Shown here: positions 1,123 to 62,641 of the stretch, one piece after another | Numbering within the stretch: the first letter of the stretch is position 1 | How the letters are laid out: every line of letters starts with the position of its first letter | DNA from: Herbiconiux solani NBRC 106740 | Lineage (GTDB): Bacteria > Actinomycetota > Actinomycetes > Actinomycetales > Microbacteriaceae | DNA length: 64,000 bases | Assembly: GCF_001571005.1 (NCBI RefSeq) | Contig: NZ_BCST01000006.1 | Location: forward strand, 62,001-126,000 | Direction of reading: 5' to 3' | Made by a program: the position numbers and the translations under genes | Notes under the pieces: model-generated | Databases searched by the model: none | Told to the model about the DNA's origin: nothing | Seen by the model: only the letters and a program-made list of their open reading frames with translations

Positions 1123-1139
1123 ACCAAGGCCCACGACCC

Positions 1140-1184
1140 GTCACTTGTTGTCGCTATACGCACCCTTTAGCGACAACAACTGAC
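1140..1184. other. Long hairpin in convergent intergenic gap
   Basis: Arms 1140-1156 and 1168-1184 are inverted repeats of 17 bp with one mismatch (GTCACTTGTTGTCGCTA against GTCAGTTGTTGTCGCTA read on the other strand), separated by an 11-nt loop. It lies between the convergent LCP and glycosyltransferase genes, so a bidirectional terminator is possible, but no T-run follows either arm. It shares the GTCACTT terminal sequence and short loop with the palindromes at 31825 and 61866. Confidence 0.75.
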
Positions 1185-1204
1185 GGATCGAGGACAGTCG
1201 GTCG

Positions 1205-22778: not shown

Positions 22779-23759
22779 GTGATCACTCCCGACCTGGCAA
22801 TGACTATCCTCGGCGGCGACCTCGCGGCTCCGCTCGTCGACGAGACGTTCGGCCACCTCGGGTCCATCGAGGAGCTGCGCGCGCCGCTCTCGGGCAAGCG
22901 CGTGGTCGTCACAGGGGGAGCCGGCAGCATCGGCGGGGCGCTCGCCGTGGCCCTGATCACCGACCCCGACCGCACGGCGCCCGTGATCGTGATCGACACC
23001 AGCGAACGGGGCGTCGCCGCCCTGAGCAACTGGGTGACCGCGCTCGGCATGTCCGCCAACCTCCAGGTCGTCGTCGCCGACGTCTCGGACCGTGATCAGA
23101 TGGACGAGGTCTTCGACCGGATCGCCGCGGAGGTCGTCGTGCACGCGGCGGCGGTCAAGCACGTCGGCACGTGCGAGGCCAACCCGCGGCTGGCGCAGCG
23201 CATCAACGTCGACGCCACGCGCATCCTGCTCGAGCAGAGCGCCCTGCGCGGCGTGACCCGGTTCGTGCTGGTCTCCAGCGACAAGGCCACCTCGCGCGTC
23301 AACGTGCTCGGCCGCACGAAGTACGACGCCGAGGTCGAGGTGGCCGCGGCCGCCGTGCGCGGTCTCGCGGCCTCCTCGGTGCGGCTGCCCAACATCTGGG
23401 GCTCGAGCGGTTCGGTGATCGAGCTCTGGCGCCAGTCGATCGCCCTCGACCTGCCCGTCACCCTCTTCGGGCCCGAGACCACGCGCTACTACCAGTCGGT
23501 CTACGACACCGTGCGCATCCTTCTTCTGCTCGCCACCCATCGCGAGACGGCCGCAGGCACCACTTTCGTGGTCTCGGAGGCCGTGCAGCTCAGCCTGGCA
23601 GAGGTGCTCGAGCGGGTCGCGGCGGATGCGGGGAACGAGTTGGAGCACCGGGTCGAGCGCCCGCGCCCGGGTGAGATCGCGCACGAGCGGCTGACCAGCC
23701 CGGACGAGACGTACGCCGAGACGCCGTGGAACGGCATCCTGGGGCTCGTCCGCGCCTGA
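22779..23759 (+). CDS. CapD/FlaA1-like polysaccharide biosynthesis epimerase/dehydratase
   Basis: Short-form (326 aa, soluble) NAD-dependent nucleotide-sugar enzyme of the polysaccharide biosynthesis family. Seen: KRVVVTGGAGSIGGAL, VVVADVSDRDQMDEVF, VVVHAAAVKHVGTCEANP, the family motif VLVSSDKATSRVNVLGRTKYDAE, and RLPNIWGSSGSVIELW. The usual YxxxK is LGRTK, i.e. Leu at the Tyr position; dehydratase-type FlaA1/PglF proteins have Met there. This suggests C4/C6 or C5 chemistry with the SDK residues as catalysts. GTG 22779 is assumed; ATG 22800 is an alternative. A CTCACC/GGTGAG hairpin at 22730-22746 lies in the leader. Confidence 0.85.
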   Translation: MITPDLAMTILGGDLAAPLVDETFGHLGSIEELRAPLSGKRVVVTGGAGSIGGALAVALITDPDRTAPVIVIDTSERGVAALSNWVTALGMSANLQVVVADVSDRDQMDEVFDRIAAEVVVHAAAVKHVGTCEANPRLAQRINVDATRILLEQSALRGVTRFVLVSSDKATSRVNVLGRTKYDAEVEVAAAAVRGLAASSVRLPNIWGSSGSVIELWRQSIALDLPVTLFGPETTRYYQSVYDTVRILLLLATHRETAAGTTFVVSEAVQLSLAEVLERVAADAGNELEHRVERPRPGEIAHERLTSPDETYAETPWNGILGLVRA

Positions 23760-23845
23760 GGCCGGCTGCCGCGCCTGGGGCCGGCTACCGCGCCTGGGGC
23801 CGGCTACCGCGCCTGAGTCCGGCTACCGCGCCTGAGGCCGGCTAC
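23751..23845. repeat. Five 19-bp tandem repeats carrying both convergent stop codons
   Basis: The unit CGCGCCTGAGGCCGGCTAC is repeated at 23751, 23770, 23789, 23808 and 23827 with one to three substitutions. The TGA of the plus-strand CapD-like gene lies in unit 1 and the TAG (CTA on the plus strand) of the minus-strand glycosyltransferase lies in unit 5. The array fills the whole 82-bp intergenic gap. Confidence 0.9.
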
Positions 23846-31824: not shown

Positions 31825-31886
31825 CGCCGAAAAGTCACTTTCACGTCCAAACCCCGCATTTTGGACGTAAAAGTGACTTCTCGGCG
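31825..31886. repeat. 62-bp palindromic element, copy A (intergenic)
   Basis: Left arm 31825-31851 and right arm 31860-31886 pair at 25 of 27 positions around an 8-nt loop; the core reads AAGTCACTTTCACGTCC. C-rich sequence on the left and G-rich sequence on the right extend the symmetry imperfectly. It fills the middle of the 141-bp gap between convergent citE-like and aldo-keto reductase genes. A second copy, almost identical over the whole length, lies at 61866-61927 inside a coding sequence. Confidence 0.9.
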
Positions 31887-55101: not shown

Positions 55102-55106
55102 TTGTG

Positions 55107-55250
55107 CCGGCAGGTGAAGGCGGCTTAGACGGTCTCTTGCGTGCCGGTAGGTGGAGGCGGCGTAGACGGTCTTCTTCGTGCCGGCAGGTGAAGGCGGCTT
55201 AGACGGTCTTTCGCGTGCCGGCAGGTGTGGGCGGCAAGACGTCCTGCTGT
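55107..55250 (+). repeat. 37-bp tandem repeat array, copy 2 (four units)
   Basis: CCGGCAGG (one copy CCGGTAGG) occurs at 55107, 55144, 55181 and 55218, an exact 37-bp period. Units 1-3 are conserved across almost their whole length, including GTAGACGGTCT or TTAGACGGTCT; unit 4 diverges in its second half. Units abut without spacers. The head sequence is the same as in the array at 1035. The gap 55102-55403 holds this array and the shared element, and no gene I can support. Confidence 0.9.
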
Positions 55251-60629: not shown

Positions 60630-61232
60630 ATGGGCGACGAGACGTACACCGGGATCCGACTCGACGAGCGCGCCGTGCGGGTGCTCGCGCATCCGCTGCG
60701 CTCGCGCATCCTCGGGCGCCTTCGGGTCGACGGGCCTGCGACCGCGACCGAGCTCGCCGCTGCGCTCGACTCCAACACCGGGGCGACGAGCTACCACCTC
60801 CGGGCGCTCGAGGGGGTCGGGCTCGTCACCGACACGGGGGAGGGCCTCGGGAAGCGCCGGCTCTGGCGGGCGTCGAGCGACTTCCACACCTGGACCGACT
60901 CGGACTTCGCCGGCGACGAGGATGCGCAGACCGCGCTCGGCTGGCTGCAGCGCGACTACATCCGTCAGTTCGCCGCTCGGGCCGAGCGCTGGCAGGACGC
61001 CTTGGCGAATTGGCCGGCGGAGTGGGTCGACCGGCTCGGGCTGTCGGACACCTTCGTGACCGTGACCCCTGGGCAGCTGCAGGGCTTCCGGGACGAACTC
61101 GAGGAGCTGTTCGACCGGTACCGCACGATCGGGGCGGGGGACCCGGCGGCCCGGCGCATCCACGTCACCACCCACGCCGCCCCCATCGACCCCACCCCGC
61201 CCGCGCCCGAGCCGGAAGAGTCGGCACAGTGA
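60630..61232 (+). CDS. ArsR-like winged helix regulator
   Basis: 200 aa. The first ~90 residues form an ArsR/DUF-type winged helix (VRVLAHPLRSRILGRLRVDGPATATELAAAL region, NTGATSYHLRALEGVGLVTD, GKRRLWRAS). The C-terminal ~100 residues (helical, AERWQDALANWPAEWVDRLGL, VTVTPGQLQGFRDELEELFDRY) resemble effector domains of helix-turn-helix regulators linked to drug transporters. The stop overlaps the MFS start (GTGA), so it probably controls that transporter. Confidence 0.88.
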   Translation: MGDETYTGIRLDERAVRVLAHPLRSRILGRLRVDGPATATELAAALDSNTGATSYHLRALEGVGLVTDTGEGLGKRRLWRASSDFHTWTDSDFAGDEDAQTALGWLQRDYIRQFAARAERWQDALANWPAEWVDRLGLSDTFVTVTPGQLQGFRDELEELFDRYRTIGAGDPAARRIHVTTHAAPIDPTPPAPEPEESAQ

Positions 61233-62641
61233 CGCACGCGCTGAGCGCCGGGCATGCCGAGCGGCGGTTCATACTGCTGACCGCCACACGGTGGCTGCCG
61301 GTGGGCGTGGTCTTCGGGCTGACCGTGCTGCTGCCCCTCGAGCGCGGCCTCTCGCTCGCCCAGGTCGGCGCCCTCCTCGCCGTGCAGGGCTTCGTCGTGC
61401 TCGGGCTCGAGCTGCCGACCGGCGGGCTCGCGGATGCACTGGGCCGGCGCCCCCCGCTGGTCGCCTCGGGCGTGCTGGCCGTCGCGTCGGCACTGCTGAT
61501 GGTGGTGGCGACGGGCTTCTGGATGTTCGCGGCCGCGATGCTCCTGCAGGGCGTGTTCCGCGCGCTCGACTCAGGGCCGCTCGAAGCCTGGTACGTCGAC
61601 AGCGCGCAGGCCGCCGACGCCGGCGCCCCGATCGAGCGGGGTCTGGGCCGGGCCTCCGGGATGCTCGGACTCGCGATCGCCGCGGGCGCGCTGGCCGGCG
61701 GAGGACTCGTGGCGTGGCATCCGATCGCCGGCTGGTCGGCGCTCGCCCTCCCGTTCGTGGTGGCGACCGTGCTCTACGCCCTGCACGCCACCCTCGTGGC
61801 CCTCCTCGTGCGCGAGCCGGGCCGCCGCCCGCGCACCCCCACCTCGCCCACCCCCGCCCCCACCTCGCCGAGAAGTCACTTTCACGTCCAAAATCCGCGT
61901 TTTGGACGTAAAAGTGACTTCTCGGCGGACGGGGTGGGGGTGGATGCGCCCACGAGCACCCGCGCCACGCGCCACGGGCCCCGGGCGTTCGCGCCCGTGG
62001 CCGAGGGGGTGCGGCTGCTCGGGCGGTCGCGGGTGCTGCGGTGCCTCGTGCTCGTCGAGGTGTTCTGGAGCCTCGCGATGATCGCTTTCGAGACCCTCAC
62101 CCCGGTGGGCCTCGCGGGCTTCCTCGGCGGCGAGGATGCGGCTGCGGCCCTGTTCGGCCCGGCCTCCGCCGCGGCCTGGGGGCTGTTCGCCCTCGGCTCC
62201 CTGCTCGGCGCGACCCTGGGCCGCCGCATCGGAGTCGCCCGGGCAGCGATCGTCGCGCGCATCCTGAACGGCGGTTTCGTCGTGCTGATGGGGTTCGCGC
62301 TCGGCCCCGTCGGGCTGCTGGCGGGCTACGGCCTGGCGTACCTCAGCCATGGCGCGGCGGGGCCGCTGCACAGCACGCTGCTGCACCGCGAGGCCAGCGC
62401 CGCGAACCGCTCGGTCGTGCTCTCGATCAACTCGATGATCGCGGGCGGCAGCTACAGCCTCGGGCTCCTCATCCTCACCCCGCTCGCCCAGACCGCCGGC
62501 ACCGGCGTCGCCTTCGTCGCCGCGGGGGCCTTCAGCGTGATCGGCGCGCTGCTCTACCTGCCGGCGGCCGCCCGGGAACGCGAGACCCGCGCCGACCGCG
62601 CCGACCGCGCCCTCAGGCTTCGTGCGGAGACTTTAGGCTAG
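61229..62641 (+). CDS. MFS transporter carrying an in-frame palindromic insertion
   Basis: 470-aa, 12-helix major facilitator protein. Helices 1-6 (ATRWLPVGVVFGLTVLLPLERGL, LALVQGFVVLGLELPTGGLADALGRRPPL with the loop 2-3 signature, and so on) are followed by a long central cytoplasmic loop and helices 7-12 (VEVFWSLAMIAFETL, LGATLGRRIGVARAAIVARIL). In the central loop, residues about 213-233 (SPRSHFHVQNPRFGRKSDFSA region) are encoded by a 62-bp palindrome that also exists in an intergenic region 30 kb away. The frame stays open through it. GTG 61229 overlaps the regulator stop. Probably a drug or metabolite efflux pump. Confidence 0.88.
   Translation: MTHALSAGHAERRFILLTATRWLPVGVVFGLTVLLPLERGLSLAQVGALLAVQGFVVLGLELPTGGLADALGRRPPLVASGVLAVASALLMVVATGFWMFAAAMLLQGVFRALDSGPLEAWYVDSAQAADAGAPIERGLGRASGMLGLAIAAGALAGGGLVAWHPIAGWSALALPFVVATVLYALHATLVALLVREPGRRPRTPTSPTPAPTSPRSHFHVQNPRFGRKSDFSADGVGVDAPTSTRATRHGPRAFAPVAEGVRLLGRSRVLRCLVLVEVFWSLAMIAFETLTPVGLAGFLGGEDAAAALFGPASAAAWGLFALGSLLGATLGRRIGVARAAIVARILNGGFVVLMGFALGPVGLLAGYGLAYLSHGAAGPLHSTLLHREASAANRSVVLSINSMIAGGSYSLGLLILTPLAQTAGTGVAFVAAGAFSVIGALLYLPAAARERETRADRADRALRLRAETLG
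61866..61927. repeat. 62-bp palindromic element, copy B (inside MFS coding sequence)
   Basis: Left arm 61866-61893 and right arm 61900-61927 pair at 27 of 28 positions around the 6-nt loop TCCGCG. Over the full length it is nearly identical to copy A (31825-31886), including the flanking CCCCCACCTCGCCGA on the left and a G-rich stretch on the right. Confidence 0.92.

Follow-up and report, generated by a model that had tools for sequence, protein, structure and literature searches.

A palindrome inside an MFS transporter gene

The window analysed here is a stretch of 64,000 nucleotides from contig C6 of the 3.85-Mb genome of Herbiconiux solani (G000). It carries an MFS transporter gene with a long palindrome in its coding sequence (copy B) and an intergenic copy of the same palindrome (copy A).

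61229..62641, + strand: MFS transporter gene by translation (PF07690, MFS_1, E 3.1e-22); copy B forms residues 213-233, a segment absent from the 13 orthologue loci aligned
61866..61927, no strand: palindrome core of copy B, 28-bp arms and 6-nt loop, 27/28 paired; member of family 1, in frame within the MFS gene
61853..61940, no strand: copy B with its outer imperfect C-rich/G-rich arms, 41-nt arms 83% complementary, fold z -12.4
31825..31886, no strand: palindrome of copy A, intergenic with convergent neighbours, 25/28 paired, agreeing with copy B at 58/62 positions

The MFS protein has 470 aa, with a GTG start at 61229 and its stop at 62641, and copy B encodes SPRSHFHVQNPRFGRKSDFSA. The initial annotation had described copy B as read in frame inside an MFS transporter, and both the translation and the MFS_1 match bear this out. 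Its figure of 27/28 paired arm positions was reproduced by our recount, and copy A, which it called nearly identical over the full length, agrees with copy B at 58 of the 62 positions. The convergent context claimed for copy A was also found, the neighbouring genes matching the Pfam families HpcH_HpaI and Aldo_ket_red. The extent of the element was understated: the 62-bp core stands, but the imperfect outer arms carry the pairing to 61853-61940. With its flanks (61846-61945, + strand), copy B folded at -79.2 kcal/mol versus a shuffled mean of -34.1 (0/200 shuffles equally good), and copy A reached a z of -9.6 on the plus strand. These results confirmed that the pairing of both copies is real and far beyond chance. 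Rfam 15 gave 0 matches in the window at the gathering score, and copy B with its flanks had no blastn match in either a plasmid or a phage collection.

An MFS orthologue was matched at E<=0.001 in 12/16 Herbiconiux genomes, our own included, the match in G013 being weak. We aligned 13 MFS loci from ten congeners, H. daphne (G002 again) and two Subtercola; 12 of them are distinct, and one is truncated where its contig ends. The copy B segment was present in 0/13 of these loci, and the loop from LVRE to the following helix varied freely in length and sequence. A palindrome scan of the congener loops (five of nine returned) gave 12-14/20 at best versus 19/20 for copy B. Because the segment is missing from all 13 loci and the loop varies freely, the alignment supports the view that the segment is not conserved ancestral protein, and the comparison of orthologues proposed by the initial annotation came out consistent with an inserted element. 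The same alignment is the basis for placing copy B in the central cytoplasmic loop, and the exact junction is unreadable because this loop is too variable. The kept reading frame is unremarkable, since copy B is stop-free in 4/6 frames.

The MFS copy was the only in-gene copy among the 39 classified in our genome. The kdpD sensor kinase gene of the congener G005 contains a degenerate member of the wider palindrome family in frame (L034:1500-1590, G005:C2), with 16/22 arm positions paired. In-frame residence of palindromes may therefore recur, as in this kdpD relative, but it is rare.

A dispersed palindrome family and its relatives

The initial annotation spoke of two dispersed copies. The palindromes do form a dispersed family (family 1), but the genome carries about 40 of them. 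BLAST of the genome gave 76 strand-wise matches. A pattern with exact arms occurred at 31 places, 30 of which are elements, every one exactly 54 nt long, GAGAAGTC to GACTTCTC. After the partial copy C8:73487 was removed from a list of 38 copies, the remaining 37 aligned without gaps and exhibited conserved arms, a fixed length and about ten variable central bases. A covariance model added the variants C1:557888, C1:313649 and C3:37601, in which both arms are altered together, and its 86 strand rows suggested about 43 places. The column table of the 37 copies showed a C-rich left flank and no conserved unpaired GTAG or CGTC tag at the hairpin end, and no T-tract follows the stem. No empty site was found for any solo intergenic copy.

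A home-made codon-model gene caller was employed to classify 39 copies (the 37 aligned ones and two variants). Convergent genes surround 27 of them, tandem genes 11 and divergent genes none, and one lies inside a gene. Two of the 11 tandem copies are the pair bracketing the nuclease gene described below. The convergent share (27/39) was far above the 24.7% of intergenic bases that are convergent in the control, which was the 64-kb window only (p 2.5e-9). Copies between divergent genes do occur in other species, though they are few. An in-gene assignment made by the home-made caller at L230 (G004) looked doubtful and was left out of the counts.

Model R1 found hairpins of near-equal length with different arms in 11/16 Herbiconiux genomes. 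It gave no match in the other 5/16, in one of which (G006) model R2 later gave 2 rows. At E<=1e-5 and with scoring limited to 23 candidates per genome, R2 matched 39/199 genomes and 28/85 genera of the bacterial family. Across species (18 sequences), 18/26 stem pairs were altered on both sides with 98 compensated cells, and the covariation score was 0.592 versus 0.177 after shuffling (0/500 shuffles as high). Covariation inside our genome alone is weak because the arms are conserved in sequence; the strong signal is the cross-species one. Selection on a strand-specific RNA was considered and rejected, the arm mismatches being mainly C/T, which permits G-U pairs on either strand in turn.

One intergenic gap holds a single palindrome at C5:226029 in our genome and two palindromes of different families in H. 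daphne (L270:1950-2100, G002). A gap shared by two species with differing palindromes was also seen at L227 (G014) and L242 (G013). Such cases could fit target preference or replacement alike. In G010, the ends of the draft contigs C66, C72 and C91 fall at palindromes, so draft assemblies may under-count them.

Nuclease-like genes between matching palindromes

The flanking genes of 101 palindrome copies were compared, with 15 loci carrying a sub-threshold palindrome excluded. Genes of one protein family were repeatedly bracketed by two palindromes about 1.05 kb apart, in four Herbiconiux species (G000, G010, G007 and G002) and one other genus (L301). At L299, in another genus, a gene of this partner family has two palindromes beside its 3' end. 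The corresponding features of our genome are as follows.

C4:371104-372241: palindrome-gene-palindrome unit
C4:371237-372229: partner gene, flanked by the palindromes 371104-371157 and 372188-372241, with its stop codon within the second palindrome
C4:177423: second nuclease gene, bracketed by a palindrome different from that of family 1

Both palindromes flanking the first gene are members of family 1, with its about 40 copies. Partner homologues were found in 16/16 Herbiconiux genomes (49 rows) and, class-wide, in 106/296 genomes at E<=1e-30. The RAYT-type transposase that had been suggested as a partner did not appear: PF01797 (Y1 HUH tyrosine transposase) matched nothing in G000 or in G002, which has more copies than any other congener, and was found in 1/16 Herbiconiux genomes (G004). 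With 0 matches in G000, a RAYT/Y1 transposase was rejected as the mobiliser here.

The partner protein has about 310 aa, with Pfam similarity to a Vsr/DUF559/MTES_1575-like nuclease domain at its C-terminus. At E<=0.01, MTES_1575 matched 20/28 members (best 4.6e-9) and DUF559 16/28 (best 1.9e-8), often under Pfam's cut-off. Five residues (E210, D243, E254, H260 and D270) are invariant in the 28 members. The AbiEi models each matched up to 6/28 members (best 1.2e-15) in the N-terminal half of some of them, the matched region being the middle of the model and not clearly its DNA-binding start. Taken alone, the partner protein of our genome had a single, weak domain match, to MTES_1575 (0.0023); none of the AbiEi models reached E<=0.01 with it. 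The domain matches appear weak but consistent over the partner family, and the Pfam similarity together with the conserved acidic and histidine residues points to membership of the Vsr/DUF559 nuclease superfamily. A sequence profile search returned no PDB relative, its one match standing at E 1.5. We take the family to be akin to EDxHD nucleases. MTES_1575 is described as a Vsr-family REase in the accessible part of an earlier paper (PMC3710099).

We then counted palindromes around the partner genes. Thirty Herbiconiux loci were fetched, and the partial loci L327, L340 and L341 were not counted. Palindromes lie on both sides of the gene at 21 of the 27 remaining loci, on one side at 4 and on neither at 2; without the four family-defining loci, 17/23 are two-sided. 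L319 lies where its contig ends, and the palindromes of L328 are below or outside the limits on both sides (15 and 17/22). As background, the 64-kb window contains 10 such palindromes, three of which are family members. At all 21 two-sided loci the flanks match each other at 18-21/22 positions; the cross-gene mean was 11.2, and 9/420 cross-gene pairs, some of them from close homologues, reached at least 18.

Class-wide, 30 loci were fetched, one of them our own, which left 29 outside Herbiconiux. Palindromes were two-sided at 22, one-sided at 4 and absent at 3. L372 is the same locus as L301, so the count without L372 is 21/28 two-sided. The remainder of the same loci (67,232 bp) contained 6 palindromes, and 0.03 were expected per side. 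The two sides match at 11-20/20 positions, the cross mean being 9.0 with 12/462 cross pairs at 16 or more, and 8/22 two-sided pairs match at under 16/20. One or both palindromes are missing at 6/27 Herbiconiux genes and 7/29 elsewhere. Protein similarity correlated with palindrome similarity (Pearson 0.63, 25 genes; Mantel 0/5000 permutations). The sequences show that genes and palindromes are paired with cognate specificity and co-diverge: the flanks of one gene usually match, and unrelated paralogues carry different palindromes.

Six pairs of nuclease loci within one genome were also compared. Three match as units, one matches inside the gene only and two are unmatched. Two genomes contain the whole unit twice, G269 with 90% identity over 1122 bp and G251 with 80% over 1134 bp. 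In both, the homology ends no more than about 30 bp from the palindromes, which places the unit boundaries there. The G350 pair matches over 978 bp, one locus being cut by a contig end, and in one G155 pair the match is confined to the gene interior. The two units of G269, like those of G251, agree in their outer arms and differ in the inner ones, and no target-site duplication is visible at these duplicated units.

The palindrome bracketing C4:177423 belongs to a second dispersed family with about 30 merged places, the two flanks of the gene included (53 rows, E<=0.01). Its members are often clustered, and tandem clusters of solo palindromes were seen. The 25 classified places comprise 16 convergent, 3 tandem, 2 divergent and 4 unclear ones.

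A candidate mobile element, alternative readings and further repeats

Our results suggest that the palindrome-bracketed nuclease-like genes are an undescribed kind of mobile element. With a probability of about two in three, we favour a two-component selfish mobile element, whose autonomous unit is palindrome-gene-palindrome and whose non-autonomous copies are the palindromes. This unit would measure about 1.06-1.12 kb, the copy in our genome being G000:C4:371104-372241. The AbiEi-related N-terminal half of the protein would be the recognition part, and the protein would recognise its own palindrome via the arms, which would probably be in an extruded hairpin or cruciform form. It would cut at the palindrome, and repair or strand transfer would seed new palindromes or the whole unit. 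New copies would land where they are tolerated, chiefly 3' of genes. Copies A and B would be solo copies, and the MFS copy, perhaps with the degenerate kdpD copy of G005, would be a rare in-frame survivor. We infer DNA binding, catalysis, mobility and a protein-caused spread of the palindromes from the sequences. It is also fairly probable that such selfish elements occur throughout the class Actinomycetes, an AbiEi-related Vsr-like nuclease recognising and spreading its own palindrome, and several co-diverging pairs per genome are possible. The initial annotation had proposed a mobile REP- or MITE-like palindrome; the dispersed family and the absence of the segment in the aligned orthologues agree with this, but no RAYT was found in our genome. 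The nuclease-like gene with which the palindromes are paired lies outside the window and had escaped that annotation.

Alternatively, selection on RNA structure could maintain the palindromes as strong hairpins between convergent genes, where they would act as bidirectional terminators or stabilise 3' ends. This reading draws on the convergent excess of family 1 (27 convergent, 11 tandem, 0 divergent and 1 in a gene) over the 24.7% control, on the distribution of the second family, and on the stem pairs changed on both sides across species, with a score above all 500 shuffles. However, it leaves unexplained why genes of one family have matching palindromes on either side, with a sequence differing per paralogue, as well as the in-frame copies and tandem clusters, and the congeners without the palindrome type (5/16 with no R1 match; 2 rows of R2 in G006). 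The stem is also not followed by a T-tract. We consider it unlikely, and any termination may be secondary. Functions as terminator or operator may exist alongside the proposed mobility, yet they leave the paralogue-specific pairs unexplained.

An AbiEi-like autoregulator acting on palindromic operators, with the dispersed copies as a regulon or decoys, seems quite unlikely to us. Part of the partner family matches AbiEi, and according to the accessible text of PMC7319586 the promoter of AbiEi contains two inverted repeats of 23 bp to which the protein binds, a length close to that of the 22-28-bp arms. The second palindrome, however, lies at the 3' end of the gene and contains the stop codon in our genome, divergent gaps are avoided (0/39 in family 1, 2/25 in family 2), and the nuclease domain would be unneeded for such a role. 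The occurrence of the complete unit twice in a genome and the Vsr / PD-(D/E)XK-type similarity (PMC3710099, in its accessible part) would also suit a free-standing homing-type element, whose nuclease cuts palindrome-free alleles and whose unit is copied in, the solos being immobile recombination scars like solo LTRs. This too seems quite unlikely: about 40 solos per one full unit in our genome, as well as the tandem clusters of solo palindromes, fit direct palindrome copying better.

The favoured two-component element has features in common with several known systems. In the available portion of a 2013 paper (PMC3733652), REP/RAYT systems have dispersed palindromes mostly downstream of or between convergent genes and sometimes in genes, a gene that these palindromes flank, and non-autonomous copies. 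Dispersal, these preferred positions, bracketing of a gene by the same palindromes and non-autonomous copies are shared between our palindromes and these REP/RAYT (TnpA-REP) REPtrons/REPINs. The gene C4:371237-372229, between dispersed-family members, resembles a REPtron in form only, its protein being unrelated. Unlike REP/RAYT, our genome yielded no Y1 transposase, the protein resembles Vsr/DUF559 and, in some family members, AbiEi, and the stems are longer (26-28 bp), nearly symmetric and without a GTAG foot. Because neither the transposase nor the tag was found, the element is not filed as REP/RAYT, despite its REP/RAYT-like presumed working. CGTC-tagged REPs apparently have no dedicated transposase, and the literature found names no dedicated mobiliser for RAYT-less palindromic repeats (PMC3733652, portion available). 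Our palindromes are likewise dispersed repeats without a RAYT, but they have no unpaired CGTC tag at one end and do have a dedicated gene.

MITEs are similarly short, non-autonomous, dispersed and based on inverted repeats. In contrast, the whole element here is one hairpin, and the partner is outside known transposase types. No target-site duplication was visible at the G269 and G251 units. In Rickettsia palindromic elements (RPE), palindromes are frequently in frame within proteins. The translated palindrome of the MFS gene is alike in this respect, but in-gene residence is rare here (1/39) and a cognate nuclease-like gene exists. The partner family resembles AbiEi antitoxins and Vsr/DUF559 nucleases at the domain level, and the accessible literature on these proteins makes no mention of palindrome pairing. 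Our literature search, with subscription journals and bioRxiv largely outside its scope, returned no description of palindromes flanking DUF559/MTES_1575-like genes in the texts accessible to it. If the favoured reading is true, it would provide a second, independent protein-palindrome mobile system, REPtron-like and built on an unrelated enzyme, with a dedicated partner of the type that CGTC palindromes are said to lack in the portion of that paper available. It would also give a role to a large group of uncharacterised nuclease-like genes (those of the 106/296 class genomes), and offer naturally paired enzymes and DNA hairpins of differing specificities, which are directly testable.

The window also holds a palindrome of a third family.

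1135..1189, no strand: third-family palindrome, 20/22 arm positions paired, arms GACCCGTCACTTGTTGTCGCTA

Four further regions fetched from the genome contain diverged copies of it, and no nuclease partner was seen for this family. Direct repeats of 36-37 bp and of one type (CCGGCAGGTGAAGGC core) form clusters at 1032-1122 and 55104-55235, one of them beside the third-family palindrome. At 23750-23844 of the window, a 19-bp tandem repeat begins at the end of a called gene.
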